From: Oscillospiraceae bacterium
Lineage (GTDB): Bacteria > Bacillota > Clostridia > Oscillospirales > Ruminococcaceae
Assembly (NCBI GenBank): GCA_022766785.1
Contig: JALEOL010000053.1
Location: forward strand, 1 to 38,042
DNA length: 38,042 nt
Reading direction: 5' to 3'
In this document: positions 15,400 through 32,515 of the stretch, one piece after another
Position numbering within the stretch: position 1 is the stretch's first letter
Layout: every line of letters begins with the position of its first letter
The notes under the pieces: generated by a model
Database searches by the model: none
Seen by the model: only the letters and a program-made list of their open reading frames with translations
Told to the model about the DNA's origin: nothing
Translations under genes and position numbers: made by a program

Positions 15400-15549
15400 A
15401 TGTTTCAGGTGATCCCGGCTGATAAAGAGAAACATGGTGAGGCGTTTTTTGCGGAGCGTTTACGTTTATTTCCTTTTTATCCAAAAGATGTCTTTATTTG
15501 TTTCGGGCGCACGATCGACCTGAATGTATTGACAAAGTATGCCGATTAG
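15400..15549 (+). CDS. Possible 49-aa leader ORF between the two operon promoters
   Basis: This short open frame starts about 10 bases after the predicted P1 start site and ends inside the P2 promoter. It has no good ribosome site and no recognisable domain. It could be a leader peptide or chance. I list it because it fills otherwise unexplained leader sequence, and I give it low confidence. Confidence 0.15.
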   Translation: MFQVIPADKEKHGEAFFAERLRLFPFYPKDVFICFGRTIDLNVLTKYAD

Positions 15550-15557
15550 TGTATAAT
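15529..15557 (+). promoter_or_regulatory. Main promoter P2 of the polysaccharide operon
   Basis: TTGACA (15529-15534), a 17-base spacer and TATAAT (15552-15557): a perfect consensus, 60 bases before the first gene. No terminator follows until 32338, so it can drive the whole glycan cluster. Confidence 0.85.
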
Positions 15558-15617: not shown

Positions 15618-16628
15618 GTGAATGGTTCGATTTATGTTATCAGCACATATTATCATGCGTTCATCTCATGCGTGAAACAGCTTGTAAACAAAGAGAATGC
15701 TGATATCCTTGTTACCAGGTATATACCTGAAAGCGATATTCTGTCAGAGCGTCTGAAGCAGAGCGGATTATTCCATGGGGTATATCTTGCCGGTGATCCT
15801 GCGGAATATATCCCCAGAAACAAGATCGATCTTCTGATCAATCTTCACAGAAAAAACGCTGAAATGCTCCAGCCGGCGATACCGGTAGATCTTCGCGGCT
15901 ATCAAACGGTGAATATCTTTCATGACGACACCTGGGTCGCCCATTATCTGAAGGACTGCAGGATAAGATACAGGCTTATAGAGGACGGTCTGGACAGCTT
16001 TAAGACGATAAAAGACACGCCGTTTTCGTATATGGTGACTAAAAGAAGCCTTGTTTCTGCTGTGAAGCGCACACTGAGAATTGGATATGTTTTCAGCGGT
16101 TTCGATCCTCTGACGACTGAGATCGAGGTCAACGACAAAAACGGAGCAGTGATCGATCCTTCGGTAAAGCACAAGCTGGTGGAAGTTCCAAGAGCGCCCT
16201 TGCTCGGAATGCTGACGGATAAGGATATTGAAGTTTTAAAGAGCATTTTTGCGAGAGATATTCCGGAGATCGACCCGCTCAGATCTGTATTACTGCTCAC
16301 ACAGCCGATATATGCTGACGGCAATACGGTATCAAAGCCGGAACAGGCAGAGCTGTACAGAATGCTGGTCTCAGATCATATTAACGCAGATGAAACGCTT
16401 GTCATAAAGCCGCACCCCAGAGATGAAACTGATTATTCTGCTGTGTTTCCGGACGCGGTTATTATCAACAAGAATCTGCCTGCCGAAATGCTGACTTACT
16501 TTAATATCAACGCCAAAAAGTTGATCGGTTTTAATTCCACTGCGATGAAAACAGTAAATGCTGACCAACGTTTTTATGCAGAGCTTAATGAATATTTGCA
16601 AAAAATCAGGAGGACGAACAATGACTGA
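15618..16628 (+). CDS. GT52-like (sialyltransferase-type) glycosyltransferase
   Basis: A 336-aa cytosolic protein with a GTG start; AAGGAG lies 6 bases upstream. It resembles the lipooligosaccharide sialyltransferase / polysialyltransferase group (GT52-like, GT-B fold): an N-terminal ISTYYHAF segment, the acidic EDG motif at 122-124 (RLIEDGLDSF) and KPHPRD at 264-269 for CMP-sugar phosphate contact, then an FNSTAMKT segment near the end. Family members use CMP-activated ulosonic acids, which fits the CMP-sugar synthetase encoded later in the operon. It is the first gene of the operon and overlaps the next by 8 bases, suggesting translational coupling. Substrate and linkage are inferred, not shown. 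Confidence 0.75.
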   Translation: MNGSIYVISTYYHAFISCVKQLVNKENADILVTRYIPESDILSERLKQSGLFHGVYLAGDPAEYIPRNKIDLLINLHRKNAEMLQPAIPVDLRGYQTVNIFHDDTWVAHYLKDCRIRYRLIEDGLDSFKTIKDTPFSYMVTKRSLVSAVKRTLRIGYVFSGFDPLTTEIEVNDKNGAVIDPSVKHKLVEVPRAPLLGMLTDKDIEVLKSIFARDIPEIDPLRSVLLLTQPIYADGNTVSKPEQAELYRMLVSDHINADETLVIKPHPRDETDYSAVFPDAVIINKNLPAEMLTYFNINAKKLIGFNSTAMKTVNADQRFYAELNEYLQKIRRTNND

Positions 16629-18669: not shown

Positions 18670-20432
18670 TGTCAAACAGTCCTTTGGTTTCAATACTTGT
18701 ACCGACATATAACGGAAGTAAATACATCAGAAGATTTCTCGATTCTGCGCTTGATCAGGAACTCAGCGATTTTGAGATCGTTTTTGTAGACGATATGTCT
18801 ACTGACGATACTCTTGATGTTCTTGAACAGTACAGAAAGGTTTTCCCTGATAAGATATGCATTTTCCCTTCCGATGTACACCATGGTTCCATTGGTGCAA
18901 TGCGCAATCTTGCATTCAGCCATGCACGCGGAAAATATGTTTATTGGTGCGATCAGGATGATATCCTTCACCCATGCGGACTGAAAAATCTTGTTGACAC
19001 GGCAGAAGAACATGACTGTGAGATAGTGTGCGGCTGGGCATATATCACGCAGGTCGGCGACGACGGAATTGCTACGACCCTTACTGTACATAACAAGAAG
19101 CAGACGCAGGCGGCAAGCATCGAAGCGTCTATAATCAACGGGATCGACTATTGGGTAAGGCTTATCAGAAAGGATTTTGCAGAGCAGCACGATCCTATTC
19201 CTGAGAATTGCTTTTTTGACGATGTGGCATACATGCCATGTCTTCAGTCATATGCCAAAAGCATTCGGTTTGTCAATTATCCGATCTATTATTATCATCG
19301 CCGGAAAGATTCTGCGTCAGGCAGCGTCAGACGGGAAGTCTGCGAAGGTTCTGTAAAGGCAGAAAAATATGCCCTGGAGCACTGCAACCCTGATTATCTG
19401 GAAGCGGTACAGTACTTTGTCGCCACCAGAACAGAGATGAATCTTAACATGCGCTGGCAGTATTTCGATGTCTTTGTGAACTGGGCAAAGGAACAAATGG
19501 CATGGATCCCTGACAATCACCTCATCACCCGAAACAGAAAGCTGTTCGACCGTATAAAGTGGGCGGCTTCCCTGACTGAAAATCTTATTCCGAACCGTGT
19601 TTATGTAAGCGGTTTCGGAGCTGCTCCTAAACAGGAACGGCTTGATGAGCTGAGGGAAAAGGTGTTTTACGACGGCTGCGATGTAGTTGTTCTTTCAGAG
19701 GAAAACTGTGACATCAACAGCAACGAATATGTTAAACGCGCATACGAGAACGGCGATTTTGAATTTGTTGCCGGTTATTTTGCCGTGAAAAACATTTTCG
19801 AAAACGGCGGTGTTTATATTCACGACAGAATAAGAATACTGAATTACTTCACATATTATAAATATCAACACGCGATCATATTCAGACTTGACAATACCAC
19901 ATTTTCTGACTGTATTTTTGGCGCTCCTGCCGGGAACCCGGTTTTTTCGGATATCCTTGAAACTTATTGCGATCACTGGGATAAAAAGCAGACCTATAGC
20001 CCCCTTGCGCAACGCATCAAGGTGATCCTTACAGCAAAATACGATATTCCGCTTAATAATTCGGGGAAAGGTTTCTCTTACCCTGTTTCGGTCATATCGC
20101 CGAACAATGGCTTGGTAAACATTGATTTCGGCAAGCAGATCTGTGAGCATGATTTCTCCGACAGATATGCAGACGAGGAATATGTGACAATAAAACGAAG
20201 TGAGATCCTGGCTCTTTGCGATATCCGTGCAATGTCGGGAGGAAGACGTTTCCCCGGAAATCAGGCACGGGGAAGTGCTGCTGAACGCGAGCTGAGCGAG
20301 ATCAAGAACTCTAATACATGGAAGATCGTTATGAAGCTCCGCAAGCTCGGAGACAGTCCCATTGGACCTTTCCTGAAAAAGATTTTTTATGGAATGCTGA
20401 AAATCAGGAAAAAATTCAAAAAGAAAAAGTGA
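18669..20432 (+). CDS. Fused GT2 glycosyltransferase with GT32-like C-terminal domain
   Basis: A 587-aa cytosolic protein. Residues 5-230 are a GT2 GT-A fold: SILVPTYNG at 8-16, VDD at 40-42 for nucleotide binding, and CDQDD at 94-98 as the metal site. From about 315 (YVSGFGAAP) to 500 the sequence looks like the GT32/capsular family: a CDVVVLSEEN strand, NIFENGGVYIHDRI, and FGAPAGNPVF. The DxD usually found after the GGxY of GT32 is replaced by HDR, so this half may be inactive or use another site. The basic, Lys-rich C terminus may touch the membrane. It starts on the stop codon of the previous gene. It probably adds one or two sugars to the growing repeat unit. Confidence 0.78.
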   Translation: MSNSPLVSILVPTYNGSKYIRRFLDSALDQELSDFEIVFVDDMSTDDTLDVLEQYRKVFPDKICIFPSDVHHGSIGAMRNLAFSHARGKYVYWCDQDDILHPCGLKNLVDTAEEHDCEIVCGWAYITQVGDDGIATTLTVHNKKQTQAASIEASIINGIDYWVRLIRKDFAEQHDPIPENCFFDDVAYMPCLQSYAKSIRFVNYPIYYYHRRKDSASGSVRREVCEGSVKAEKYALEHCNPDYLEAVQYFVATRTEMNLNMRWQYFDVFVNWAKEQMAWIPDNHLITRNRKLFDRIKWAASLTENLIPNRVYVSGFGAAPKQERLDELREKVFYDGCDVVVLSEENCDINSNEYVKRAYENGDFEFVAGYFAVKNIFENGGVYIHDRIRILNYFTYYKYQHAIIFRLDNTTFSDCIFGAPAGNPVFSDILETYCDHWDKKQTYSPLAQRIKVILTAKYDIPLNNSGKGFSYPVSVISPNNGLVNIDFGKQICEHDFSDRYADEEYVTIKRSEILALCDIRAMSGGRRFPGNQARGSAAERELSEIKNSNTWKIVMKLRKLGDSPIGPFLKKIFYGMLKIRKKFKKKK

Positions 20433-20463
20433 GCGCTGCTCCGGCAGAAAGGCGGGTCAACAG

Positions 20464-21327
20464 ATGAAAAGAATAGTGGTCACCGGCGCGGACGGATATA
20501 TCGGTACTCATGTGATCGCGGAGCTGGTCAAACAGAAGGAACGGTTTGATATCACCGCAGCAGTTCTGGACGCAGATCATTGTGAAAGGATCAGCGGAGT
20601 GAACTATGTCTCGTTTGATTTCGTGACAGATCACAGCCGTGAGAACCTCTGCGATGTGCTGGGACGTCCCGAGATATGCCTGCATCTCGCATGGCGTGAC
20701 GGATTTGTACATAACTCCACCAGACATATCGAGGATATTTCTTCCCACTTCGGTTTTCTGAAAAATCTGGCAGATCACGGAACGAAACAGTTCGCTGTTG
20801 CCGGATCATTCCGCGAGTACGGCAATGTCAACGGAATGGTTGATATTAACAGCTTTGCATATCCGGACAACATGTATATGCTTTCAAAGGTCATGCTGAA
20901 AAGGGCATTAGAGTTATATTTCGCCGGGAAAGATATCTGCCTTCAGTGGTTCAGACCGTTCACCGTATACGGCGATGAGGAGAAGAACCATTCTATCCTC
21001 AGCAAGATATTGATGTGGGAAAAGGAGGGCAAAGAGACCTTCCCGTTTACCGATGGAACAGAGCAGTACGACTATATCGAGATACACGAGCTTGCAAGGC
21101 AGATCGCGGCGATAGTTTCTCAGAACGAGATAGATGGTGTAATAGATTGCTGTTCAGGCGTTCCCACCAGATTAGGCGATATGGTAGAAAAGTTTATTTC
21201 TGACAATCATCTCAGGATCCGCCCTGAGTATGGCGCCTTTCCGAGCAGGAGCTATGATTCGAAGATCGTATATGGCGATGTCCGCAAAATAAACAGAATA
21301 ATGGAAATAACAGGAACAAACGGCTGA
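20464..21327 (+). CDS. NAD(P)-dependent sugar epimerase/reductase, candidate dTDP-4-keto-6-deoxyhexose reductase
   Basis: A 287-aa extended short-chain dehydrogenase. The Rossmann motif TGADGYIG is at 7-14, Ser115 (VAGSFREYG) and Tyr138-x3-Lys142 make the catalytic set, and RPFTVYG follows near 169. It lies directly before rmlC, rmlA and rmlB, while no typical rmlD is present. The best guess is the final 4-keto reduction giving dTDP-L-rhamnose or its C4 epimer dTDP-6-deoxy-L-talose. An epimerase role on another sugar is possible. The start ATG has a modest ribosome site (GGCGGG). The gap of 31 bases to the upstream gene and 14 to rmlC supports one operon. Confidence 0.72.
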   Translation: MKRIVVTGADGYIGTHVIAELVKQKERFDITAAVLDADHCERISGVNYVSFDFVTDHSRENLCDVLGRPEICLHLAWRDGFVHNSTRHIEDISSHFGFLKNLADHGTKQFAVAGSFREYGNVNGMVDINSFAYPDNMYMLSKVMLKRALELYFAGKDICLQWFRPFTVYGDEEKNHSILSKILMWEKEGKETFPFTDGTEQYDYIEIHELARQIAAIVSQNEIDGVIDCCSGVPTRLGDMVEKFISDNHLRIRPEYGAFPSRSYDSKIVYGDVRKINRIMEITGTNG

Positions 21328-21341
21328 CAAAGAGGAGAAAC

Positions 21342-21902
21342 ATGAACGTCACAAAGCTTGAAATTGAAGATGTGCTGGTTATCGAACCTGATGTTTACAA
21401 TGATTTCAGGGGTTACTTTTATGAATCATATTCGAAAAGAACGCTGGAAAAGTTCGGAATAACCAACGAGTTTGTCCAGGACAACCACCTGCTTTCCCTG
21501 AAAAAAGGAACTATTCGTGGGATACATTTTCAGAATGCCCCGATGTCTCAGGCGAAACTGCTGCGCTGCACAAAGGGAAGAATAATGGATTACGCAGTGG
21601 ATCTGCGTAAAGGCTCACCCACCTACAAAAAATGGGTCTGCGTGGAGCTGAGTGCGGAAAATAAAAAGCAGATCTTTATTCCCAAAGGATTCGGACATGC
21701 ATGCATCTCTCTTGAGGACGATACCGAGGTACAGTATAAGGTCGATGAGTTTTTCTCCCCTGAAAACGATCGGTCTGTCGCGTGGAACGACCCGGAGCTT
21801 GCCGTAGACTGGGGGACTGACGAGGTTATTGTGTCTGAAAAAGACCGAACGGCTCCATTCTTAAAGGAATGCGACATCAATTTTACTTACGGAAACGACT
21901 GA
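21342..21902 (+). CDS. rmlC: dTDP-4-dehydrorhamnose 3,5-epimerase
   Basis: A 186-aa cupin enzyme of the usual family length. It converts dTDP-4-keto-6-deoxy-D-glucose to the L-lyxo form by epimerising C3 and C5. Visible motifs are FRGYFYESY near 22-30, the catalytic His62 in IRGIHFQ with Arg59, VDLRKGSPTY at 86-95, IPKGFGHA at 113-120, Tyr132 in VQYKV and WNDPELAVDW near 148-157. A strong AGAGGAG ribosome site precedes the ATG. Its stop codon overlaps the first base of a family A mobile element, so the gene ends right at the insertion and remains intact. Confidence 0.95.
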   Translation: MNVTKLEIEDVLVIEPDVYNDFRGYFYESYSKRTLEKFGITNEFVQDNHLLSLKKGTIRGIHFQNAPMSQAKLLRCTKGRIMDYAVDLRKGSPTYKKWVCVELSAENKKQIFIPKGFGHACISLEDDTEVQYKVDEFFSPENDRSVAWNDPELAVDWGTDEVIVSEKDRTAPFLKECDINFTYGND

Positions 21903-22226
21903 TACTAATAACCATTTAAACTCAGGAAATCTGTGCCGAAATCCAGCACCGCTATCGTAATTAATGTGGTTTGCGAAGACTCGCTCACTTATGTCCAGCC
22001 TTTCCGGTCGGAGCGACCGGAATTTCGCCTGCGGCGAAACCGCACGGACTAACGAAAGAAACTTGAGCGTTTTCCGCGCAGCGGATAATGCGTACATACA
22101 GTACGCCGGCGTTTCTTTTCCAAGGGACACGCTGATTAAAGCGTAGAGTAACAAAATCAGCGTGTCTCTGGATATCGGTACTGTCTTTCAGCAAATCTTT
22201 TCCTTCGTTTAAACGGTTATTAGTAT
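21902..22226. mobile_element. MITE-like inverted-repeat element, family A copy 2 (325 bp), inside the operon
   Basis: The ends ATACTAATAACC... and ...GGTTATTAGTAT match copy 1, as do the subterminal blocks. It is longer because of extra segments holding three small perfect hairpins with 3-base loops (CCGGTCG-GAG-CGACCGG at 22004-22020; TTTCGCC-TGC-GGCGAAA at 22023-22039; TCCGC-GCA-GCGGA at 22073-22085) and a 12-bp stem GACACGCTGATT / AATCAGCGTGTC (22126-22166). No coding sequence and no T-rich terminator. It separates rmlC from rmlA and may change mRNA processing or stability there. Confidence 0.8.
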
Positions 22227-22258
22227 GAACACAGTGCTGATGTGAGGTGTGCAAAAGC

Positions 22259-23137
22259 ATGAAAGGTATTATTCTGGCAGGCGGCAAAGGAACACGATTA
22301 TATCCGAGTACTGCGGTAGTTTCAAAGCAGCTGCTCCCAATATATGATAAACCTTTGATCTATTATCCGCTTTCTGTTCTTTTACTTGCAGGTATAAGGG
22401 AAATTCTGGTCATATCAACTCCTCAGGACACGCCGAATTACAAGCGTCTCCTGGGTGACGGAGAGCGGCTGGGGCTTAATATACAATACGCAGTGCAGGA
22501 AACGCCGCGCGGGCTTGCTGACGCGTTTATCCTGGGAGCGGATTTCATCGGGGAAGACAGTGTTTGCCTGGTACTTGGTGACAACGTGTTTTATGGACAG
22601 GGTCTGACGCTTTATCTCAGGAATGCGCAGGAGCAGATAAAAAACGGCGGCGCATCTATATTTGGTTATCCGGTGGGCAATCCGAGAGAGTTCGGAGTGG
22701 TGGAATTTGACGAGAACAATAAGGTCATTTCCATTGAAGAAAAGCCTGCCAGACCTAAATCAAACTATGCGGTGCCGGGGTTATATTTCTATGATCCACA
22801 TGTTGTGGATATAGCCAGAAAGGTCGAGCCGTCGCCCAGAGGAGAGATCGAGATAACCGCAGTCAACAACGCCTATCTCGCGGAGGGAAGTCTGAATGTT
22901 ACGCTGCTGGGACGCGGCGTTGCGTGGCTTGATACCGGATCGCCGAAGGGCATGCTGAAAGCGTCGCAGTTCGTCCAGACAGTGCAGGATATGCAGGGTT
23001 TCTATATTTCCTGTATTGAGGAGATCGCATGGCGCAGAGGATTTATAAGCACAGAACAGCTCCACAGACTGGGTGAGGAGCTGTCCATGACTGCCTATGG
23101 ACAATATATACTGTCTCTATCGGAGGATATATTATGA
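22259..23137 (+). CDS. rmlA: Glucose-1-phosphate thymidylyltransferase
   Basis: A 292-aa enzyme that makes dTDP-glucose from dTTP and glucose-1-phosphate, the first step of the dTDP-6-deoxyhexose route. I chose the ATG at 22259 (GAGGTG upstream); the open frame extends to a GTG at 22247, which lacks room for a ribosome site. The signature [11 protein letters not shown] is at residues 8-18, followed by [25 protein letters not shown] near 108-115, [20 protein letters not shown] and WLDTG. Length and motifs are those of RmlA. Four bases overlap with rmlB (ATGA), indicating coupled translation. Confidence 0.96.
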
Positions 23138-24153
23138 ATATCATTGTAACTGGGGGCGCCGGTTTTATCGGCGGTAATTTCGTTCATTATATGCTGAGGT
23201 CACACCCGGATCATCGTATAGTCTGCCTTGACTGCCTCACCTACGCCGGCAACCTTGAAACGCTTGCGCCTGTAATGGAAAACCCGGGGTTTCGCTTCTG
23301 CAAGGTAGATATCACTGATCGCGAGGCGGTTTTTGGTGTGTTTGAAGAGGAAAAACCGGATATCGTGGTGAATTTTGCTGCGGAGAGTCACGTTGACCGC
23401 TCGATCGAAAATCCCGGAGTTTTTCTCAACACCAATATCATTGGTACACAGGTGATGATGGACGCATGCCGCAAATTCGGGATACAGCGGTTTCATCAGG
23501 TGTCTACGGACGAAGTGTATGGTGATCTGCCGCTTGACCGTCCGGATCTGTTATTTACCGAGGATACCCCTGTCCATACCTCCAGCCCTTATTCTGCGTC
23601 CAAGGCGAGCGCCGATCTTCTGGCAATGGCATATCACAGAACATTCGGACTTCCCGTAACTATTTCCAGATGCTCCAATAACTACGGTCCGTATCAGTTC
23701 CCGGAGAAGCTTATTCCGCTGATGATCGCTAATGCCCTCGGCGACAAACCGCTTCCGGTGTACGGCGAGGGACTGAATGTGCGTGACTGGCTGTATGTAG
23801 AAGATCACTGCCGGGCGATAGATCTGATCATTCACAACGGAACCGTGGGCGAGGTATACAACATCGGCGGCCATAACGAAATGAAAAACATTGATATCGT
23901 AAAGCTCATCTGCAAAATACTCGACAAGCCCGAGAGCTTGATAACCTATGTGTCGGACAGAAAAGGTCACGATATGCGCTATGCGATCGACCCCACAAAG
24001 ATACATAATGAACTGGGCTGGCTGCCTGAAACCAAATTCGCGGACGGAATACAGAAAACGATACAGTGGTACCTAGATAATCGTGAATGGTGGGAAAACA
24101 TTATCAGCGGCGAATATCAGGAATACTATCAGAAGATGTATTCACACAGATGA
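23134..24153 (+). CDS. rmlB: dTDP-glucose 4,6-dehydratase
   Basis: A 339-aa extended SDR enzyme converting dTDP-glucose to dTDP-4-keto-6-deoxyglucose with bound NAD. The Rossmann motif TGGAGFIG is at 6-13, the family-specific TDE triad at 125-127 (STDEVYGDL), and the catalytic Tyr153-x3-Lys157 in [26 protein letters not shown] near 175-192 and the RPGHD-like [12 protein letters not shown] stretch are also diagnostic. Ribosome site GGAGGA. It supplies the substrate of RmlC and of the SDR reductase at 20464-21327. Confidence 0.97.
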
Positions 24154-24169
24154 CTGGAGAGTATGAAAA

Positions 24170-24829
24170 ATGAAGGTTGCATGTTTTATTCCGATCAAAG
24201 CTAATTCGGAGCGGGTACCCGGAAAAAATCTCAAGATGATGAACGGAAAACCCTTGTTTCAGTACATTTGCGAGCATGTTAAGCAAGCAGATGTCTTTGA
24301 CGACATCTACATTGACACAAACAGCGAGATAGTGACCGAATACGCAAAGCAGAACGGCTTCATTCCCATAAAGAGGGAGGAGTGGCTTTCCACCAGTGCT
24401 GCAAACGGCAACGATCTGCTTGTTCATCATTACAAGATGTTTCCTCAATACGATCTGTATTTTCAGATCTTTGCCACAGCGCCGTATCTTCAGCCTGAGT
24501 CGATCAGAAAATGCGTGCAGACGCTGAAAGAAAATGAACAGTATGATTCCTGCTTTACTGCTACGGAAAACCACAGCTTTTACTGGTTCAACAACGTACC
24601 TGTAAACTATCGTCCGTGTATTCTTCCGAGAAGCCAGGATATGGCTCCTGTATTTGAGGAGACCACCGGGCTTTACGGCATGAGAAATTCTGCTCTGGAA
24701 AAGTATCGCTGCCGTATCGGAGCCAAACCATATATACACACCGTAAGCAAGTTCGAGGCGGTAGACATCAATACCGAAGAAGATTTCAGCGTTGCCGAAT
24801 ATATCGGAAAGGCATATTGGAAATACTGA
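24170..24829 (+). CDS. CMP-acylneuraminate synthetase-like cytidylyltransferase
   Basis: A 219-aa nucleotidyltransferase of the NeuA/KdsB/PseF type, expected to join CMP from CTP to a keto-acid sugar. The N-terminal CTP loop is IPIKANSERVPGKN at 7-20 with Arg15 and Lys19; ATAPYLQPESI lies at 102-112; and the C-terminal metal-site pattern VDINTEEDF is at 198-206. Length matches the minimal catalytic domain; there is no extra phosphatase or acetyltransferase domain. No NeuB, KdsA or PseI gene is in the window; the next two genes encode an aldolase-like enzyme and a HAD phosphatase that could supply its substrate. The two GT52-like domains at the start of the operon are the probable users of the product. 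Confidence 0.82.
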   Translation: MKVACFIPIKANSERVPGKNLKMMNGKPLFQYICEHVKQADVFDDIYIDTNSEIVTEYAKQNGFIPIKREEWLSTSAANGNDLLVHHYKMFPQYDLYFQIFATAPYLQPESIRKCVQTLKENEQYDSCFTATENHSFYWFNNVPVNYRPCILPRSQDMAPVFEETTGLYGMRNSALEKYRCRIGAKPYIHTVSKFEAVDINTEEDFSVAEYIGKAYWKY

Positions 24830-24860
24830 AAACAAAATTCTGGCAGGGGGTGAGATATAA

Positions 24861-26438
24861 TTGATACGAATGCTTGACTGCACGCTTCGTGATGGCGGGT
24901 ATATCAATAACTGGCATTTCGGGCGTTCCAAGGCGGTAAACATCGTCAGAAAACTGGAAAGCGCCGGAGTTGATATTATTGAGGTGGGTTTTCTTGATCA
25001 GAAATTCGCGTCTTCTGACGATCACACGGTATTCAACAGCGCTGCCGACATAAACAGGTTTATTTCGGAATGCAGTATCAATCCTGACACCAACGTTGTT
25101 GCGATGATCATGCACGGCAGCTTTAATGTTGACGATCTCCCCGAAGCAGCCGGAATACTGAAAGGCATAAGGTACTGCTTCAAAAAGGAATTCGTATGCG
25201 AAGCTCTTGAAATGTGCCGTAAAATAGCCGAAAAGAAATATGACGTTTATCTCCAGCCTGCGTCGCTCACTGATTATTCTGATCTCGACATCATTGACCT
25301 TGTGAACAGGGCAAACAAACTTGATATCAAGGCTTTTTATATCGTAGACACATATGGACTGATGCGCAGAGAACAGGTCGTAAGATATTTCTATATCATC
25401 GACAATAACCTTGCCGCTGGAGTGCCGATAGGATTTCATTCGCATAATAATCTTCAGCTCTCCTTTTCCAATTCCCAGGCGCTGATCGATATCTGCAAAC
25501 ATCGGGAACTGTATATCGACTCCTCAATATTCGGCATGGGGAGAGGTGCCGGAAACCTCTGCACCGAGCTGTTGATACAGTATATCAACGAAAATATACA
25601 GCCAGAATATGACCTGATCCCAATACTTGAAACAATGGACGAAAGCATTATGCCAATATATTCTGTTCGTCCATGGGGATATGCCGCTCCGTACTATATT
25701 GCAGCCATCAACGACTGCCACCCGAACTACGCGACCTATCTGGTGGACAGGCAGACGCTCTGTATTCGTGATATCAACTCGATAATAAAGAGCATACCCA
25801 GGGAATACAGGCATAAATACGATCAGACCCTGATCAGCGAATTGTATAATCAGTATCAGCAGTGCTCAATTGACGATTCAGCTGTCCTGGAAAGTCTCAG
25901 CAGGCTGTGCCTGGAAAAGAAAGTGCTGATCATCGCCCCGGGCAAGAGCGTTTCGACCCATTCCGAGATGATAAACAATTTCATCATCAGTAATTCGCCG
26001 ATAGTTTTTGCCGTCAATCATATCCCCGATCTGGTAAGGTTCGATAGGGTATTCGTGGCAAATTCCAAGCGTTTCAAGGAGATCACCGCTTCAGGACAAG
26101 AAATTGCAGACAAGATGATCTGTACGTCCAACATCAAGGAAAATGATCATTTCTGTGCTGTAAATTATTCCTCTTACCTTAACGACGATGACGCGATCTC
26201 TGATAATTCAGGGCTTATGCTGATAAATCTGTTGATAAAGGCAGGAGTGAATGATTTTGTTCTTGCCGGTTTTGACGGTTACAGTTCTGACAGCCAGAAT
26301 TATTTCAGCGACAGTCTTTCAGACAGCGTTGAGTATCAGAAAAGAGAGCTTACCAATGCCGCGGTAACGACTTATTTTTCAAAGCTGCGCAAATCAACAT
26401 CGGTAACATTCCTTACCCCATCGAAATACAGGAGTTAA
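24861..26438 (+). CDS. DRE-TIM pyruvate-aldolase-like enzyme with unknown C-terminal domain
   Basis: A 525-aa two-domain protein. A TTG start at 24861 fits AGGGGGTGA 8 bases upstream; the next ATG (24870) would be too far. Residues 1-300 are an HMGL-like TIM barrel related to 4-hydroxy-2-oxovalerate aldolases: LDCTLRDGGY at 5-14 (Arg10, Asp11), EVGF at 41-44, metal ligands His193 and His195 in GFHSHNN, and GMGRGAGN at 225-232. Such enzymes split or form 4-hydroxy-2-keto acids from pyruvate and an aldehyde using a divalent metal. Residues about 352-525 form a Rossmann-like domain (VLIIAPGKSV at 355-364, FAVNHIPD at 383-390, DFVLAGFDG near 465) reminiscent of Maf/DUF115-type proteins, function unknown. 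The likely role is making a keto-acid sugar for the adjacent cytidylyltransferase (inference). Confidence 0.75.
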   Translation: MIRMLDCTLRDGGYINNWHFGRSKAVNIVRKLESAGVDIIEVGFLDQKFASSDDHTVFNSAADINRFISECSINPDTNVVAMIMHGSFNVDDLPEAAGILKGIRYCFKKEFVCEALEMCRKIAEKKYDVYLQPASLTDYSDLDIIDLVNRANKLDIKAFYIVDTYGLMRREQVVRYFYIIDNNLAAGVPIGFHSHNNLQLSFSNSQALIDICKHRELYIDSSIFGMGRGAGNLCTELLIQYINENIQPEYDLIPILETMDESIMPIYSVRPWGYAAPYYIAAINDCHPNYATYLVDRQTLCIRDINSIIKSIPREYRHKYDQTLISELYNQYQQCSIDDSAVLESLSRLCLEKKVLIIAPGKSVSTHSEMINNFIISNSPIVFAVNHIPDLVRFDRVFVANSKRFKEITASGQEIADKMICTSNIKENDHFCAVNYSSYLNDDDAISDNSGLMLINLLIKAGVNDFVLAGFDGYSSDSQNYFSDSLSDSVEYQKRELTNAAVTTYFSKLRKSTSVTFLTPSKYRS

Positions 26439-26439
26439 A

Positions 26440-27096
26440 ATGAAGTACGATCTGGTAATTTTTGATTTTGACGGAACCCTTGCAGATACCTCTCTCGGGA
26501 TCTTTAACAGTATCCGGCATGCCTCTGCGGCACTGGGTCTTCCGGAGATCCCTCAGACGCAGATGCGCTCGTTTATCGGCCCGCCTCTCAGCAGCGCCTA
26601 TATCAGCAATTTTGGTCTGAGCGGGGAAGTCCTGGAAACCGCGATGCGGCTTCACAAGGAGTATGGCGTGGCTCACGGATACAAGGAGCTGGAGTTTTAT
26701 AACGGGATATTCAGCTTGCTTGAGTACCTGAAAAAAGCCGGAGTTCAGACGGCGATCGCAACGCTGAAGGTTCAGCCGACGCTGAATAAGATCGTTGAGG
26801 AATTTGATTGCTCAAAGTATTTTGACATTTGCAAGGGCGCTGATCTCGGCGCTCCCATGACAAAGGCAGAAATGCTCAGGTTCTGTATAAGTCAGGCAGG
26901 AAATATCCCTGATACCAAAGCAGTGCTTGTAGGCGACAGTATTTTCGACGCCGAAGGCGCACAGGAAGCCGGGATAGATTTCATAGCGGTCACATATGGA
27001 TTTGGCTTTGCAAAGGGAGAAAAGTTTAAGCTCCCCTGTGTGGCAGAGGCGGATTCTGTGGAGGAGCTGTCAGGGCTGTTTGAAAATATGCGGTAA
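26440..27096 (+). CDS. HAD-superfamily phosphatase, candidate sugar-acid phosphate phosphatase
   Basis: A 218-aa cytosolic HAD hydrolase of subfamily IA. The nucleophile Asp9 and acid/base Asp11 lie in FDFDGTLADT; a helical C1 cap follows at about 15-80; the Thr motif II is AIATLK near 106; and GDSIFDAEGA near 167 is the Mg-binding motif IV. Family members include phosphoglycolate phosphatase and the N-acetylneuraminate-9-phosphate phosphatase of animals. It starts 2 bases after the aldolase stop codon with AGGAG inside the aldolase end, so the two are coupled. Removal of phosphate from the aldolase product before CMP activation would fit, but a general sugar phosphatase role is equally allowed by the sequence. 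Confidence 0.75.
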   Translation: MKYDLVIFDFDGTLADTSLGIFNSIRHASAALGLPEIPQTQMRSFIGPPLSSAYISNFGLSGEVLETAMRLHKEYGVAHGYKELEFYNGIFSLLEYLKKAGVQTAIATLKVQPTLNKIVEEFDCSKYFDICKGADLGAPMTKAEMLRFCISQAGNIPDTKAVLVGDSIFDAEGAQEAGIDFIAVTYGFGFAKGEKFKLPCVAEADSVEELSGLFENMR

Positions 27097-27128
27097 GTAT
27101 GTCTGCATTGTCAAGAGGTAGTGGTTTT

Positions 27129-27896
27129 ATGCTTCAAAAAATACATCGGTATCGCTTCCTTTTTGAGGAGCTGGTAAAACGCGATTTTACAAAGAAATAC
27201 AAGAGAACAGTGCTGGGTATGTTCTGGAGCGTACTCGGGCCGCTTATGACTCTGGGAGTAATGGCGCTGGTGTTCACGCAGTTTTTTGGCAGGAACATTG
27301 AGCACTATATTATTTACCTGTTCTGTGGAAATCTGCTGTTCAGCTATTTCAAGGAGTCCACTTCAAGCGGAATGACTGCCCTGTATGATAACTCCGGAAT
27401 ATTCTCCAAGGTCAACGTCCCGAAATATATGTTCCTGCTTTCAAAGAATGTTTCTTCACTGATAAATTTCGGTATAAACATTCTGGTACTCTTTCTTTTC
27501 TGCATTATCGACGGCGTGGCGTTTTCGTGGAAGTTCCTGATGCTTATCTATCCCATATGCTGTTTAGTGGCATTCAATCTGGGAATGGGGCTTATCCTTT
27601 CAGCGCTTTATCTTATGTTCCGGGACATGAAATATCTCTATGATGTATTCACTCTGCTTCTTATGTATGTTTCGGCGATATTTTATTCTGTAGACGCATA
27701 TCCACAGGAAATACAATATCTGTTTAATCTCAATCCGGTTTATGTGTATATCAGTTATTTCAGAAAGATCATTCTTGATGGTGAAATACCTCAGTTTTCA
27801 TTTCATCTGATCGCAGCCGGATATGCACTGATCGCTCTTGCGCTCGGTGCAGTGATATACAAGAAAAAGAACTATAAGTTCCTGTATTACATCTGA
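27129..27896 (+). CDS. ABC-2 type polysaccharide exporter, permease
   Basis: A 255-aa integral membrane protein of the Wzm/TagG family. I prefer the ATG at 27129 because AGAGGT lies before it and homologues begin near the conserved VKRDFTKKYKRTVLG segment; an upstream ATG at 27099 has no ribosome site. About six hydrophobic segments are visible (for example VLGPLMTLGVMALVF, NILVLFLFCII, LIALALGAVIY), with the family loop QEIQYLFNLNPVYVYISYFRKI near the C terminus. With the ATPase encoded next it should flip or export a lipid-linked glycan finished in the cytoplasm. This explains the absence of a Wzx flippase and Wzy polymerase here. Confidence 0.88.
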   Translation: MLQKIHRYRFLFEELVKRDFTKKYKRTVLGMFWSVLGPLMTLGVMALVFTQFFGRNIEHYIIYLFCGNLLFSYFKESTSSGMTALYDNSGIFSKVNVPKYMFLLSKNVSSLINFGINILVLFLFCIIDGVAFSWKFLMLIYPICCLVAFNLGMGLILSALYLMFRDMKYLYDVFTLLLMYVSAIFYSVDAYPQEIQYLFNLNPVYVYISYFRKIILDGEIPQFSFHLIAAGYALIALALGAVIYKKKNYKFLYYI

Positions 27897-27906
27897 CGGG
27901 GGAAAT

Positions 27907-28659
27907 ATGGGCGATCCAGTTATTGAAGTTAAAAACGTATCTATCAGATATATCACCGGTGATCTGCGGAATATAGGGCTGAAAGAATTCCTGATGAAAA
28001 AGCTGACAGGAAAGTATCAGGTTCAGAGCTTTATGGCGGTAGACAATGTTAGTTTTACTGTTGAACAGGGCGATATGCTTGGCATCATCGGCACGAACGG
28101 CGCAGGTAAATCCACGCTCCTGAAGGCGGTCACGCAGATCATGGTGCCCACCAGAGGAAGCGTTAAGGTCAACGGCAAAATCGCCGCCCTGCTGGAACTT
28201 GCCAGCGGCTTTGACGGCGATCTTGATTTAAAGGAAAACGCCTATCTGAGAGGTGCTATGCTGGGGTACACGCGGAAATTCATGGACGAAAAGTACCCGG
28301 AAATACTTGCATTTTCAGAGCTTCAGGAGTTTGAGAACCGTCCGTTCAAGCAGCTGTCCAGCGGCATGAAATCAAGGATCGCATTCTCTATAGCCAGTAT
28401 GCTGGAACCGGAGATACTCATTCTTGATGAGGTGCTTTCCGTTGGTGATGGAGCGTTTCGCGAGAAAAGCGAAGCGAAGATGCGGGAGATAATCAGGAAC
28501 GGAAAGGCAACGATCCTGGTATCTCATTCTATCCAGCAGGTACGCAGGTTGTGCAACAAAGTGTTGTGGCTGGATCATGGAAAGCAGATAGCCTTCGGAG
28601 AAACAGACCCAATATGCGATAAATACGAAGAGTTCCTCAAGACAAAAAAACTTCCGTGA
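27907..28659 (+). CDS. ABC-2 type polysaccharide exporter, ATPase
   Basis: A 250-aa ATPase of the Wzt/TagH/KpsT group. Walker A is GTNGAGKST at 62-70, the signature LSSGM at 150-154, Walker B LILDE at 171-175, D-loop SVGD, and the switch His in LVSHS near 206. ALLELASGFDGDLDLKEN at about 94-111 is typical of polysaccharide and teichoic acid exporters. It ends soon after the nucleotide-binding domain, so there is no Wzt-type C-terminal glycan-binding domain; recognition of a chain-end sugar by that route is not expected. Eleven bases downstream of the permease; its stop overlaps the next start (GTGA). Confidence 0.92.
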   Translation: MGDPVIEVKNVSIRYITGDLRNIGLKEFLMKKLTGKYQVQSFMAVDNVSFTVEQGDMLGIIGTNGAGKSTLLKAVTQIMVPTRGSVKVNGKIAALLELASGFDGDLDLKENAYLRGAMLGYTRKFMDEKYPEILAFSELQEFENRPFKQLSSGMKSRIAFSIASMLEPEILILDEVLSVGDGAFREKSEAKMREIIRNGKATILVSHSIQQVRRLCNKVLWLDHGKQIAFGETDPICDKYEEFLKTKKLP

Positions 28660-29495
28660 ATAATATGATGAACGATATTCAGATATTCATGTGCTGCCAC
28701 AAGGCATTTGAGTTTCTGCCGCCAATGTGTCAGCCTATACAATGCGGAGCAGCTCTGTCCCAACCGGTGAAGGGCGCTGTTTCAGATAACACCGGTGACA
28801 GCATCTCGGCGAAAAACCGGGAATATTGTGAACTTACCGCTCACTATTATGCGTGGAAAAACGTTAAGGCAGATCATTATGGCTTCTGCCATTACCGTCG
28901 TTTTTTCTGCGCAGACGACAGTGTAAAGTATCCGTACCTGGCATGGGGTATGCGCCCGGACATTCCTGTGGGGGACGAAAACCACTGGCGTCACGCCGTT
29001 TCAGAATACGATATCGTTGTTCCGCGAAGCGAGGACATGGGACTTTCCGCAAGGGAGCACTACTGCACCTCGCTATATCATTATCCGGAGGATCTGGAGC
29101 TTTTCCTGAAAATACTGTCAGGACATTCTCCTCAGATAATGCCGACAGCGGAGCGTTATCTTTCTCAGAGACGTCAGTATTTTTGTAACATGTTCATTAT
29201 GAACAGAGAGGATTTCTTTGAGTACTGTGGGATCCTGTTCCCGGTTCTTGAGGAATTCGACCGCTGCAAGACGCTGCATGGGGATTTTCAGTCTGACCGT
29301 GTTGACGGATACCTTGGCGAGATATTCACGGGGATATTTATTACCCTGTGCCGGGAAAGAGGAGAAAAAATCAAGGAAGTGCCGCGTCTTGACGTTTGCT
29401 GTTCAGCAAAAAAAAGACTGTCATATCATTTGCTCCCACCGGAAAGCAGAAGAAGATTTTTGGTAAAAAAGCTGGCTAAGAAATTCAGAGGTTAG
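28656..29495 (+). CDS. DUF4422 capsule-type glycosyltransferase
   Basis: A 279-aa protein of the DUF4422 family, found in capsular and exopolysaccharide clusters and thought to be a glycosyltransferase. Hallmarks are DIQIFMCCHK at the start, DNTGDSISAKNREYCELTAHYYAWKN-type sequence at about 44-70 (conserved ISxKNxxYxELT and WKN) and YGFCHYRRFF at about 75-84. CNMFIMNREDFFEYC near 178-192 and DGYLGEIF near 215 also fit. The start is uncertain: the GTG at 28656 overlaps the ATPase stop, with ATGs at 28665 and 28668, and no clear ribosome site is seen. The sugar it adds is unknown; galactofuranose-related genes follow. Confidence 0.82.
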   Translation: MNNMMNDIQIFMCCHKAFEFLPPMCQPIQCGAALSQPVKGAVSDNTGDSISAKNREYCELTAHYYAWKNVKADHYGFCHYRRFFCADDSVKYPYLAWGMRPDIPVGDENHWRHAVSEYDIVVPRSEDMGLSAREHYCTSLYHYPEDLELFLKILSGHSPQIMPTAERYLSQRRQYFCNMFIMNREDFFEYCGILFPVLEEFDRCKTLHGDFQSDRVDGYLGEIFTGIFITLCRERGEKIKEVPRLDVCCSAKKRLSYHLLPPESRRRFLVKKLAKKFRG

Positions 29496-29496
29496 A

Positions 29497-30591
29497 ATGT
29501 ACGATTATCTTATTGTCGGGGCAGGATTGTTCGGGGCAGTTTTTGCACGGGAAATGACCGATCATGGAAAAAAGTGCCTTGTTATCGACCGCCGTCCGCA
29601 CATTGGCGGAAACTGTTTTACTGAGTGCGTTGAGGAGATAAACGTTCACAAATACGGCGCGCATATTTTTCATACCTCAGACAAGAAAATATGGAATTAT
29701 GTGAATAGATTTGCGGAGTTTAACAATTTTGTCAATTCACCGATCGCAGTATACGGCAGCGAACTGTATAATCTTCCGTTCAACATGAACACGTTCAGCA
29801 AAATGTGGGGAATTACCACTCCTGCTCAAGCGAAAGAGATCATTTCGGAGCAGATAGCCGCGCTGCATATCACCGAGCCGAAAAACCTTGAGGAACAGGC
29901 TATTTCTCTTGTAGGCAGGGACGTCTACGAAAAGCTCGTAAAGGGATACACAGAAAAGCAGTGGGGACGGAAATGCAGCGAACTTCCAGCGTTTATCATC
30001 AAACGCCTGCCCCTGCGCTTCACATATGATAACAACTATTTTTCGGACAGATATCAGGGGATCCCTATAGGCGGATACACTCCGGTTTTTGAGCGGTTAC
30101 TGGACGGGACGAGAGTTCTGCTGAACACCAAATACGATGATATCCGTGGGGAAAAAATCGCGGAAAAAACTGTATTCTGCGGCTGTATAGACGAGTTTTT
30201 CGGATACTGCCTTGGCGAGCTGGAGTATCGCTCAGTTCGTTTTGAGCAGGAGGTGCTGGATACCGATAACTTTCAGGGTAACGCTGTGGTGAATTATACT
30301 TCGGCTGATATTCCGTTTACCCGAATAATCGAGCATAAACACTTCGAGCATGGCAGTCAGGAAAAAACTGTTATAAGCCGGGAGTACCCGGTCAGCTGGC
30401 AGAAAGGGTCAGAGCCGTATTACCCCATAAATGATGAAAAAAACACAGAGCTTTACGGTAAATATGCCGAACTTGCACATACACGCCCGGATGTTATTTT
30501 CGGCGGCAGGCTGGGACAGTACAGATATTACGATATGGATAAGGTCATCCGAGCGGCGTTGGATACGGTCAGAAACGAACTAACGAGGTGA
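29497..30591 (+). CDS. glf: UDP-galactopyranose mutase
   Basis: A 364-aa FAD enzyme interconverting UDP-galactopyranose and UDP-galactofuranose. The FAD-binding loop is VGAGLFGAVFA at 7-17, followed by DRRPHIGGNC near 30-39 and KYGAHIFHT at about 51-59. KGYTEKQWGRKCSELPA and RLPLRFTYDNNYFSDRYQGIPIGG-type segments in the middle carry the substrate-binding Trp and Arg, and GRLGQYRYYDMDKVI near the C terminus is diagnostic. The start lies 1 base after the preceding stop. Its presence predicts galactofuranose in the exported glycan, matching the GlfT2-like transferase next to it. Confidence 0.96.
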   Translation: MYDYLIVGAGLFGAVFAREMTDHGKKCLVIDRRPHIGGNCFTECVEEINVHKYGAHIFHTSDKKIWNYVNRFAEFNNFVNSPIAVYGSELYNLPFNMNTFSKMWGITTPAQAKEIISEQIAALHITEPKNLEEQAISLVGRDVYEKLVKGYTEKQWGRKCSELPAFIIKRLPLRFTYDNNYFSDRYQGIPIGGYTPVFERLLDGTRVLLNTKYDDIRGEKIAEKTVFCGCIDEFFGYCLGELEYRSVRFEQEVLDTDNFQGNAVVNYTSADIPFTRIIEHKHFEHGSQEKTVISREYPVSWQKGSEPYYPINDEKNTELYGKYAELAHTRPDVIFGGRLGQYRYYDMDKVIRAALDTVRNELTR

Positions 30592-30595
30592 TACG

Positions 30596-32308
30596 ATGCG
30601 GCTGCAAAGCGTGATAATTCCCGAAACAAAACACGATACGGAGCTGTATTACAGAGGATCCCTGACGCCTGCTGACGGCGGTAGCCTTTCCTTTGACACA
30701 TATTTTAACAGCTTCTCATTTACAAAATACCGTAAGTACACAACTATCAATGATATACGATTTTTCTGTGAATTTACCGGAAGGGCTCGCATTGAAATGT
30801 GCGTTTTTGACGGTGAGGAGCATATCCTGTGCGGCGGTGAATTCAGCGGAGAAGCTGAGATCTCTGTAGAGTTTCCGGAGCTTTTGGAAAAGGGATTTCT
30901 GTACCCCAAAATCACTGCGCTTGATGATTTTTCTTTCGTCAGAGGCGAATACAGATCAGACTGCGTTCCAGGGGAAATATCCTGCTGCGTTGCGATATGC
31001 ACCTACAAAAGAGAAGATTATGTGCTGAAAAACACCGGACTGCTCCGGAAATATAAGTTCAGTTTTATTGACCGGGTGTTTGTTGTGGACAACGGAAATT
31101 CGCTGGACTGTGCTGCATTATCCGATGACATGATAAAGGTTCTGCCGAACAGGAATTTCGGCGGCAGCGGAGGGTTTACCAGAGGTCTTATCGAGGCTCA
31201 TGACGGGGGATTTTCTCACGTCATTCTGATGGACGATGATGTGGAATTTCACCCGGAAGTGCTTGAACGAATGACAGTGTTCGCATCTCTGTTAAAGCCG
31301 GAATACTCCGGTGCTCATTTCAGCGCTGCGATGCTGTCTCAGAATGTACCGTATATTCAGTTTGAGATGGGAGCGGATTGGGACGGACTTCGTATCTGCC
31401 ACGGCGGGCACAACGTTGATGTCCGTACCCCCGGCGCGCTGCTTGATAACAACAACGGTGATGATATCAGCTACGGAGCGTGGTGGTGCTTTATGCTGCC
31501 TGTTTCTGACATTGATGAGTTCGGGCTTCCGTATCCTTTTTTTATCAAAATGGACGATGTAGAATATGGAATGCGCACATGTGAAAACGCTCAGATCATT
31601 ACCATGAATGGTATTGCTGTGCGTCATGAGGATTTTGATAACAAGTACAGCATGCACCTGGAGTACTATCTTTTACGAAACCAGCTCGTGCTGAATACGA
31701 TCCAGAACAGAAAGCCCCTTGCCAATGGAATATTTCGTTTCCTTGGCGTTTCATTCAAGCATCTGGTGCTGTACAGGTATGACAATATTCCCGTAGTTCT
31801 AAAAGCCGTTGATGATTTCCTGGAAGGTGTGGATCTCTTCCTGTCATGTGACGAGGAGCAGAAAAACCGTGAGCTTATCAGTATTTCGCCAAAGCTTCAG
31901 CCTCTTTCACAGATCCCGGAATGGAATGATGATATGCGCAGGGCAGCGCGCGGCAGGGATCATAAGGTGCTTACTCCTGCGGCGCTGCTTTCCCTTGCAG
32001 GGCATTTATATCCTCCGTTTTTGCAGAAAAAAGGGGTCGGCGCGGCACCGCTGTCGCTCGCAGGGGCTGATGATACGCTGAGGTATAAGGCTGTGATCCA
32101 GTATCAGCTGGGCGCACAGACAGGCATGATCACCCGAAGGAGCGTCCGGAAATTCGTAATATACTCAGCAAAAATCCTGTGTATGACTTTCAGGCTTCTT
32201 TTCCGTTTCAACAAAGTAAAAAAGGACTATTTGTCACGAAAGTCAGAAATTACCTCACTGGATTTCTGGCGCAGGCATCTTGGTATTGACCTACCGGATC
32301 ATGTCTGA
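30596..32308 (+). CDS. GlfT2-like galactofuranosyltransferase
   Basis: A 570-aa GT2 enzyme of the GlfT2 type. Residues 1-120 form an N-terminal beta-sandwich, as in mycobacterial GlfT2. The GT-A core begins at about 130 (CVAICTYKRED), with the metal-binding DDD at 213-215 (LMDDDVEFHPE), YGAWWCFMLP at 293-302, the catalytic base region MDDVEYGMR at 319-327 and metal-ligand His344 in VRHEDFD. A helical C-terminal part follows. It should polymerise or add galactofuranose from UDP-Galf supplied by Glf. It is the last gene of the operon: stop at 32306-32308, terminator at 32338. Confidence 0.9.
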   Translation: MRLQSVIIPETKHDTELYYRGSLTPADGGSLSFDTYFNSFSFTKYRKYTTINDIRFFCEFTGRARIEMCVFDGEEHILCGGEFSGEAEISVEFPELLEKGFLYPKITALDDFSFVRGEYRSDCVPGEISCCVAICTYKREDYVLKNTGLLRKYKFSFIDRVFVVDNGNSLDCAALSDDMIKVLPNRNFGGSGGFTRGLIEAHDGGFSHVILMDDDVEFHPEVLERMTVFASLLKPEYSGAHFSAAMLSQNVPYIQFEMGADWDGLRICHGGHNVDVRTPGALLDNNNGDDISYGAWWCFMLPVSDIDEFGLPYPFFIKMDDVEYGMRTCENAQIITMNGIAVRHEDFDNKYSMHLEYYLLRNQLVLNTIQNRKPLANGIFRFLGVSFKHLVLYRYDNIPVVLKAVDDFLEGVDLFLSCDEEQKNRELISISPKLQPLSQIPEWNDDMRRAARGRDHKVLTPAALLSLAGHLYPPFLQKKGVGAAPLSLAGADDTLRYKAVIQYQLGAQTGMITRRSVRKFVIYSAKILCMTFRLLFRFNKVKKDYLSRKSEITSLDFWRRHLGIDLPDHV

Positions 32309-32486: not shown

Positions 32487-32515
32487 TTGACAATTACTTT
32501 ATTTCATGGTATAAT
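32487..32515 (+). promoter_or_regulatory. Consensus sigma-A promoter of the protease gene
   Basis: TTGACA (32487-32492), a 17-base spacer and TATAAT (32510-32515), a perfect consensus, followed by a leader of about 45 bases and a GAAAGGAAG ribosome site before the ATG at 32569. Confidence 0.88.

Follow-up and report, generated by a model that had tools for sequence, protein, structure and literature searches.

To our knowledge, KdsA and the synthases of the NeuB family are the known bacterial entry points to ulosonic acids activated with cytidine monophosphate (CMP), and the absence of these synthases is used to predict species without 3-deoxy-D-manno-octulosonic acid (Kdo) or sialic-acid-like sugars. 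Here, we compare the Kdo pathway (KdsD-KdsA-KdsC-KdsB) and the sialic, legionaminic and pseudaminic acid pathways (NeuB/LegI/PseI together with NeuA/LegF/PseF) with a locus in a 38,042-nucleotide stretch of an Oscillospiraceae genome of the Ruminococcaceae (assembly GCA_022766785.1, contig JALEOL010000053.1, positions 1 to 38,042; this whole stretch is the window in the following), in which genes for a cytidylyltransferase, for a pyruvate aldolase-like enzyme fused to a C-terminal domain and for a HAD phosphatase lie within a presumed glycan operon. We consider it likely that this operon makes and exports a glycan with a 3-deoxy-2-ulosonic acid, Kdo- or nonulosonate-like, without a phosphoenolpyruvate (PEP)-dependent synthase, based on gene order, conserved residues, co-occurrence, the displacement of kdsA and kdsD, and the exchange of cytidylyltransferase types. 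The strongest form of the claim, supported by comparison of related sequences, is that the fused enzyme would stand in for KdsA and KdsD in those relatives that carry a KdsB-type cytidylyltransferase. A search of the open-access literature, with most subscription papers and bioRxiv preprints outside its scope, found nothing on this aldolase or on such a route. A genomic island of Bacillus coahuilensis carries kdsA, kdsB, kdsC, kdsD and kpsC, and the report on it names the classical kdsA and describes the presence of Kdo genes in Firmicutes as unexpected (PMC4744853).

The three open reading frames (ORFs) were found where a preliminary description of this DNA had placed them, all on the + strand and tightly packed, and their products exceed the Pfam cut-offs for CTP_transf_3, HMGL-like and HAD_2. 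The cytidylyltransferase (24170-24829, +; 219 aa), of the NeuA/PseF subtype with the motif VPGKNLK, matches PF02348 (CTP_transf_3) with 77.6 bits at a cut-off of 22.6, and its top NCBIfam model is PseF (99 bits, under the cut-off of 205.7); with NeuA (9t4z) and the CMP-N-acetylneuraminate (CMP-Neu5Ac) synthetase 1qwj as best solved relatives, it falls among the NeuA/PseF/LegF-type cytidylyltransferases. The fused aldolase (24861-26438, +; 525 aa) has a TTG start with GGGGGTG upstream and consists of a DRE-TIM pyruvate-aldolase-like domain (PF00682, HMGL-like; approximately residues 1-335, 24861-25865) and a C-terminal domain of about 190 residues (336-525, 25866-26438). The HAD phosphatase (26440-27096, +; 218 aa), a proposed ulosonate-phosphate phosphatase, matches PF13419 (HAD_2) with 112.8 bits at a cut-off of 23.8, and its top NCBIfam model among the 25 of 29 matches listed is phosphoglycolate phosphatase (80 bits, under the cut-off of 225). 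Although no NCBIfam model exceeds its cut-off for any of the three proteins among the matches listed, the superfamily placement of all three is right as judged from their sequences.

None of the classical synthases was found in the genome that contains the window (G000; 2.48 Mb in 112 contigs). A whole-genome search gave no NeuB (PF03102), no match to the KdsA model TIGR01362, no KdsB and, at E 1e-10, no KpsF-type KdsD (TIGR00393), isomerases with only an SIS domain lying outside this search; the sole PF00793 protein is a 3-deoxy-D-arabino-heptulosonate 7-phosphate (DAHP) synthase of the AroFGH type. The lack of a NeuB- or KdsA-type synthase, which the preliminary description had reported for the window, hence extends to the whole 85.75% complete genome, and no NeuB, KdsA or PseI gene that could supply the cytidylyltransferase was found elsewhere in it. 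Two further, weaker CTP_transf_3 proteins are encoded on contigs C18 (34.4 bits) and C28 (21.2 bits, below the cut-off of 22.6), and no aldolase relative was found in their surroundings (loci L066 and L067). The window thus shares with the sialic, legionaminic and pseudaminic acid pathways the NeuA/PseF-like cytidylyltransferase and the GT52- and polysialyltransferase-like transferases, but not the NeuB-family synthase.

The co-occurrence of these genes was followed in 148 genomes of the window's family, using the cut-offs of 314 bits for KdsA (TIGR01362), 203.7 for KpsF and 155.2 for the kdsB equivalog, and E < 1e-60 for a true NeuB. Of the 148 genomes, 23 carry the fused aldolase and 18 carry KdsB. 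In 17 of the 18, the aldolase lies within 200 bases of kdsB on the same contig and no KdsA exceeds the cut-off, while the eighteenth, G008, carries KdsA and KdsD instead of the aldolase; each KdsB gene is accompanied by either the aldolase or KdsA plus KdsD, never by both and never by neither (Fisher p 2e-16, ignoring kinship). G008 is also the only one of the 148 genomes with a KdsA over the cut-off (about 388.6-388.8 bits); the next best match reaches 128.6 bits, and we read the matches at or below this value in other family genomes as probable DAHP synthases. Likewise, among the 23 aldolase genomes and G008, a KpsF-type KdsD exceeds its cut-off in G008 only. The six aldolase genomes without KdsB are G000, G111, G056, G096, G118 and G047. 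A NeuA-type gene precedes the aldolase in the first three, so that the combination of fused aldolase and NeuA-type gene without NeuB, for which the preliminary description had suggested a search, recurs in G111 besides G000, with NeuB present in G056. In G096 the aldolase stands in a thiamin diphosphate (ThDP) enzyme context, in G118 beside a 598-aa gene of similar size, a likeness by size only, and in G047 the locus ends at the contig end.

The replacement can be seen directly in two species of one genus, G008 (cluster L107) and G127, whose clusters are syntenic with protein identities of 95% for wzm, 94% for wzt, 79% for the GT52-like gene, 88% for kdsC, 81% for DUF2142, 94% for GT2 and 92% for GT4. 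Between the GT52-like gene and kdsC, G008 carries kdsB-kdsA-kdsD, and G127 carries a different kdsB (39% identical) followed by the aldolase. At the DNA level, similarity to G127 covers 4437-7796 of L107, breaks inside kdsB and resumes at 10177 at kdsC, so that the exchanged piece comprises most of kdsB, kdsA and kdsD. The NCBIfam scores agree with this assignment: in G008 KpsF reaches 305.1 bits (cut-off 203.7), and the KdsC-type phosphatase reaches 137.9 bits (cut-off 106.95) in G008 and in G127. The order wzm-wzt-GT52-kdsB-aldolase is followed by a KdsC homologue in ten of ten loci (L044-L048, L050-L052, L054 and L056), and such a homologue also follows the aldolase in the contig-edge locus L053, in L055 and in L042. 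As the phosphatase is retained, the product of the aldolase may be a phosphate. In two of these loci a class II aldolase gene (PF00596) lies behind the KdsC-type phosphatase (L046:10582-11262; L052:7864-8553). Relatives of the window hence share with the Kdo pathway the KdsB-type gene, a KdsC-type or other HAD phosphatase and a cluster of exporter and transferases, as well as, presumably, the product class of 3-deoxy-2-ulosonates, but the aldolase fusion occupies the place of KdsA and KdsD; the window itself differs further by its NeuA-type cytidylyltransferase and HAD_2-type phosphatase. Together with the co-occurrence with KdsB, the syntenic replacement supports the earlier proposal that the genes act together and that the aldolase replaces a PEP synthase, while the sugars then thought of were sialic-acid-like and the strongest evidence now concerns Kdo-like ones.

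The catalytic domain can be compared with the 4-hydroxy-2-oxovalerate aldolases (DmpG/BphI, TIGR03217), which carry out 4-hydroxy-2-keto acid chemistry. The window aldolase matches HMGL-like with 76.9 bits at a cut-off of 29 (residues 2-258), and residues R10, D11, H193 and H195 are invariant in 103 of 103 relatives, the Pfam match together with D11, H193 and H195 marking it as a DRE-TIM metallolyase; we take these positions to correspond to the Arg that stabilises the enolate in 4-hydroxy-2-oxovalerate aldolases and to the metal ligands of those enzymes. The top NCBIfam model is 4-hydroxy-2-oxovalerate aldolase (90 bits, under the cut-off of 229), and aldolase families score above the Claisen-type synthases (90 versus 46 bits). 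The confidently predicted structure (predicted local distance difference test, pLDDT, 90) gave Foldseek matches to 3dxi, 4lrt and 1nvm, and alignment to the Protein Data Bank (PDB) returned 3dxi (E 7e-26) and 4lrs (E 3e-14). Fold, Arg-Asp and His-x-His positions are thus common to DmpG/BphI and the window aldolase, but the latter lies far under the TIGR03217 equivalog cut-off (85.5 versus 286 bits), has Tyr14 (100 of 103 relatives) at the position of a His, bears an extra C-terminal domain and is encoded in a biosynthetic operon, where no acylating aldehyde dehydrogenase partner was found among the genes scanned. The closest solved relative is BVU_2661 of Bacteroides vulgatus, which shares the motif LDCTLRDGGY; its PDB entry 3dxi, covering the N-terminal domain only, is titled 'putative aldolase' without an assigned function, and no mention of it was found in the open-access literature searched. 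Among plasmids and viruses, the only matches are distant ones (six plasmid records and two from phage collections), none covering 80% of the query, and most of the annotated ones are called 'aldolase catalytic domain-containing protein' or '4-hydroxy-2-oxovalerate aldolase'. On these grounds the fused enzyme is a putative pyruvate aldolase. The window genome also encodes a short paralogue of 324 aa with the motif DATLRDGG and without the C-terminal domain (L065:7039-8013; G000:C83:7096-7974), which adjoins a putative heavy-metal P-type ATPase gene; some 20 of the 148 genomes of the family have a similar short form.

The route that we infer, as regards each chemical step, the acceptor aldose and the product, would start with the formation of a pyruvate enolate at a divalent metal in the DRE-TIM domain and its addition to an aldose that is probably phosphorylated, yielding a 4-hydroxy-2-keto-3-deoxy sugar acid. 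The HAD phosphatase would take off the phosphate, the cytidylyltransferase would make the CMP-sugar, and the GT52- and polysialyltransferase-like enzymes would attach it to a glycan that the ABC transporter exports.

The aldolase is spread far beyond the family, as seen in the best 80 of at least 577 confirmed loci of named genomes, inspected in stretches of up to 6 kb on each side. These derive from Bacillota, Bacteroidales, Gastranaerophilales, Spirochaetes, Fusobacterium, Akkermansia and Succinivibrionaceae and, among the archaea, from metagenome-assembled genomes (MAGs) of Thermoplasmata/Methanomassiliicoccaceae. A cytidylyltransferase lies directly upstream of the aldolase in 53 of the 80 loci (28 KdsB-type, 25 NeuA-type) and farther off in four more, and 41 of the 80 have a HAD_2- or KdsC-like gene no more than 1 kb from the aldolase. 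Since the pairing of cytidylyltransferase and aldolase recurs across phyla, it is more than chance. Profiles built from one sequence each detected neither KdsA- nor KdsD-like genes in the 80 stretches at E 1e-5, and a single NeuB-family gene was found (L158; 132 bits versus PseI, cut-off 340). When the partner type (KdsB, NeuA or ThDP-like) is mapped onto a quick maximum-likelihood tree of 103 aldolases, 16 changes are required and the KdsB and NeuA types are interleaved; L131, which is nearest to the window by path length, carries KdsB in place of the window's NeuA type. Members of the ThDP-like type on the tree were assigned from how large the downstream gene is; three of the 19 were checked by profile (L159, L196 and L049), as was L214, which lies outside the tree. 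In L049 (4995-11631), RfbF, RfbG and RfbH over their cut-offs are followed by the aldolase and an acetolactate-synthase-like ThDP enzyme, and in L196 (4126-10069) the aldolase stands with RfbH and a ThDP enzyme, which suggests that branched sugars are built with a keto acid made by the aldolase. The genes for a cytidine diphosphate (CDP)-4-keto-3,6-dideoxyhexose and the acetolactate-synthase-like enzyme resemble the YerE-type systems of branched-chain sugar synthesis, but YerE uses pyruvate itself and in the ThDP loci the aldolase would probably supply a longer keto acid. In five loci (L040, 9858-10883; L147; L178; L203; L213) a PfkB kinase gene follows the aldolase and no HAD phosphatase is seen beside it; of these kinases, that of L040 was scanned, and its best matches are 2-keto-3-deoxy-gluconate kinases (504 and 225 bits, under the cut-offs). 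ThDP enzymes of the kind seen in L049 use up a 2-keto acid, and so do cytidylyltransferases of the class considered here. The element shared by the ThDP, kinase and cytidylyltransferase settings would be a 2-keto or 2-keto-3-deoxy acid, the type of compound that pyruvate aldolases form.

Several observations weigh against a synthase-free route to a CMP-ulosonate. The window genome is incomplete, and partial KdsD-model matches of 43-90 bits occur in the aldolase genomes G056, G107, G010 and G052, the best of them (G056, 90 versus 203.7 bits) in a frame with stops. Thirteen of the 23 aldolase genomes do have a NeuB, which sits on a different contig from the aldolase except in G054 and G020, where the two share a contig at distances of 78 kb and about 650 kb, and in fragmented assemblies a NeuB on another contig could still be close to the aldolase; the term 'NeuB-independent' of the preliminary description therefore holds for the locus and not for every genome. 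In 23 of the 80 named loci, a few of them cut by contig ends, no cytidylyltransferase lies in the stretch, so that the aldolase is not tied to CMP-sugars. The general-base His of the characterised pyruvate aldolases is a Tyr in the fused enzyme, so that its mechanism must differ in part from theirs. Moreover, kdsB was exchanged too between G008 and G127, where most neighbours of the GT52-like gene are better conserved than it is, and the KdsB of G008 passes the equivalog cut-off, which four of five scanned aldolase-linked KdsB proteins do not reach (L048, L044, L131 and L141; L036 exceeds it); for these reasons the sugar of the aldolase clusters may be a Kdo relative instead of Kdo itself. A draw of 398 genomes from the phylum contains 42 with KdsB, and 36 of these, but no others, have KdsA. 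One of the six KdsB genomes without KdsA has the aldolase beside KdsB (G159), and five have neither (G191, G281, G354, G480 and G491), so that a missing KdsA alone is no proof of replacement. The five KdsB-only loci (L211, L212, L215, L216 and L217), three of which were scanned and show methyltransferase, 2-hydroxyacid dehydrogenase, short-chain dehydrogenase/reductase (SDR), cyclase and FkbH-like neighbours, possibly reflect another use of the cytidylyltransferase fold. The other aldolase genomes of the draw are G507, in which KdsA and KdsB stand together and the aldolase lies on another contig in a ThDP setting (L214), and the window's own. With 36 of the 42, the classical pair dominates elsewhere, and the aldolase version is characteristic of certain lineages, with the window's family among them.

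These observations can be read in other ways. The loci without cytidylyltransferase, the NeuB genes elsewhere and the ThDP context, a likely use of the keto acid outside CMP-sugars, would all fit an aldolase that makes an unrelated 2-keto acid for the glycan, with the cytidylyltransferase being fed by salvage or by a PEP synthase encoded elsewhere. We regard this as unlikely, given the cytidylyltransferase directly upstream in 53 of 80 loci, the aldolase in 17 of 18 KdsB genomes with KdsA over the cut-off in none of the 17, the replacement of kdsA-kdsD in a syntenic cluster that retains kdsC, and the ten of 23 aldolase genomes in which no NeuB match is better than 9e-11. Alternatively, a Claisen-type or other DRE-TIM reaction with an acyl-CoA or another keto acid donor could provide a hydroxy acid for cytidylylation, as the superfamily includes isopropylmalate and homocitrate synthases, which also give weak matches, the usual general-base His is replaced, and two other KdsB-type loci lie beside 2-hydroxyacid dehydrogenases. 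The best sequence and fold matches, however, are pyruvate aldolases, the enzyme replaces KdsA, the maker of a 3-deoxy-2-ulosonate, and no regulatory domain of the isopropylmalate synthase kind appears among the 25 of 56 Pfam families listed for the C-terminal domain, which leaves Claisen chemistry highly improbable.

The C-terminal domain itself allows for a further interpretation. In structure searches its fold resembles GT42/GT29 sialyltransferases, Maf, MptE and thiamin pyrophosphokinase, and a profile match to a GT42-like sialyltransferase is weak (E 0.065); from this, the protein might be a fusion of a synthase with a CMP-ulosonate transferase. Such a transferase seems improbable to us, since the domain is kept also in loci without a nearby cytidylyltransferase, never stands alone in the 148 family genomes, and has the same fold as MptE and thiamin pyrophosphokinase, which transfer no sugars. 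Its restriction to the fusion also speaks against a free-standing enzyme and, with the confident structural model, confirms the aldolase-Rossmann fusion of the preliminary description as real. An arabinose-phosphate isomerase was considered because kdsD is lost together with kdsA, but this candidate found no support, as the fold matches lie with GT42/GT29, Maf and MptE instead; the Pfam match to 'Lyx_isomer' is weak (best E 0.03, 7 of 92), and SIS-type proteins were inconspicuous in the fold searches, which excludes nothing. We infer that the domain may serve the aldolase, e.g., by binding a cytidine nucleotide sugar or by mediating feedback from it. Returning to the aldolase-based route to an ulosonic acid, a more far-reaching version is tentative and less likely than not: one fused enzyme could do the work of KdsD and KdsA and create a new CMP-ulosonate precursor from pyruvate instead of PEP, for example a Kdo-epimeric octulosonate from ribose 5-phosphate without the need for an isomerase, the sialyltransferase-fold domain could sense the cytidine-nucleotide sugar end product, and the module could feed both CMP-ulosonates and ThDP-made branched CDP-sugars.

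The three genes lie inside a run of glycan genes from 15618 to 32308, as seen in a Pfam scan of the ORFs. It starts with a GT52-like transferase (15618-16628, +; PF07922, 65.5 bits versus a cut-off of 26.1), a candidate user of the CMP-sugar that shows 31% identity (BLASTP) to the transferase encoded in L107, the KdsA-type cluster, and for which a sequence search for solved relatives gave none useful. The next gene (16558-18669, +) encodes a GT8 domain (PF01501, 106.8 bits) and a C-terminal polysialyltransferase-like domain, which matches only PF07388 (23.4 bits versus a cut-off of 23.3); of the two GT52-like domains proposed before, the first is borne out by its Glyco_transf_52 match and the second is not. 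A GT2 glycosyltransferase (18669-20432, +; PF00535, 113 bits) follows in the same operon, with SDR and rmlC/rmlA/rmlB-like genes, recognised at the Pfam level only, between it and the three focal genes. Directly behind these lie the Wzm-like ABC-2 exporter permease (27099-27896, +; PF01061, 45.7 bits) and the Wzt-like ABC exporter ATPase (27907-28659, +; PF00005, 82.6 bits), and then genes for DUF4422, a UDP-galactopyranose mutase and a galactofuranosyltransferase-like protein up to the end of the run. Ahead of the first gene of the presumed operon, a consensus scan found a promoter-like TTGACA-17-TATAAT (15529-15557, +; 12 of 12 positions), which by itself is no evidence of function, since such sites are no more than pattern matches and, over the region, not in excess of shuffled sequence (36 versus 30.5, standard deviation 6.0). 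Behind the run, a gene with its own perfect promoter consensus (32487-32515) encodes a large protein with papain-like protease, lectin-like and fn3 domains (32569-35232), and ahead of the run a 333-aa protein (14181-15182) without a Pfam match at E 0.05 resembles, in our impression, a phage tail or baseplate-type protein.

The comparison indicates that the textbook acidic-sugar pathway probably has a second, aldolase-based version in some gut and soil microbes. The pair G008 and G127 would provide a clean case of enzyme displacement within a syntenic cluster, and it makes the question directly testable. If the reading is true, a function would be provided for a large family that is annotated, where annotated at all, as 'aldolase catalytic domain-containing protein', and pyruvate aldolases with complex acceptors would be added to those described. 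Many Gram-positive gut bacteria, as well as some Bacteroidales, Gastranaerophilales, Spirochaetes and archaeal MAGs, would then carry ulosonic acids that genome annotation has missed.

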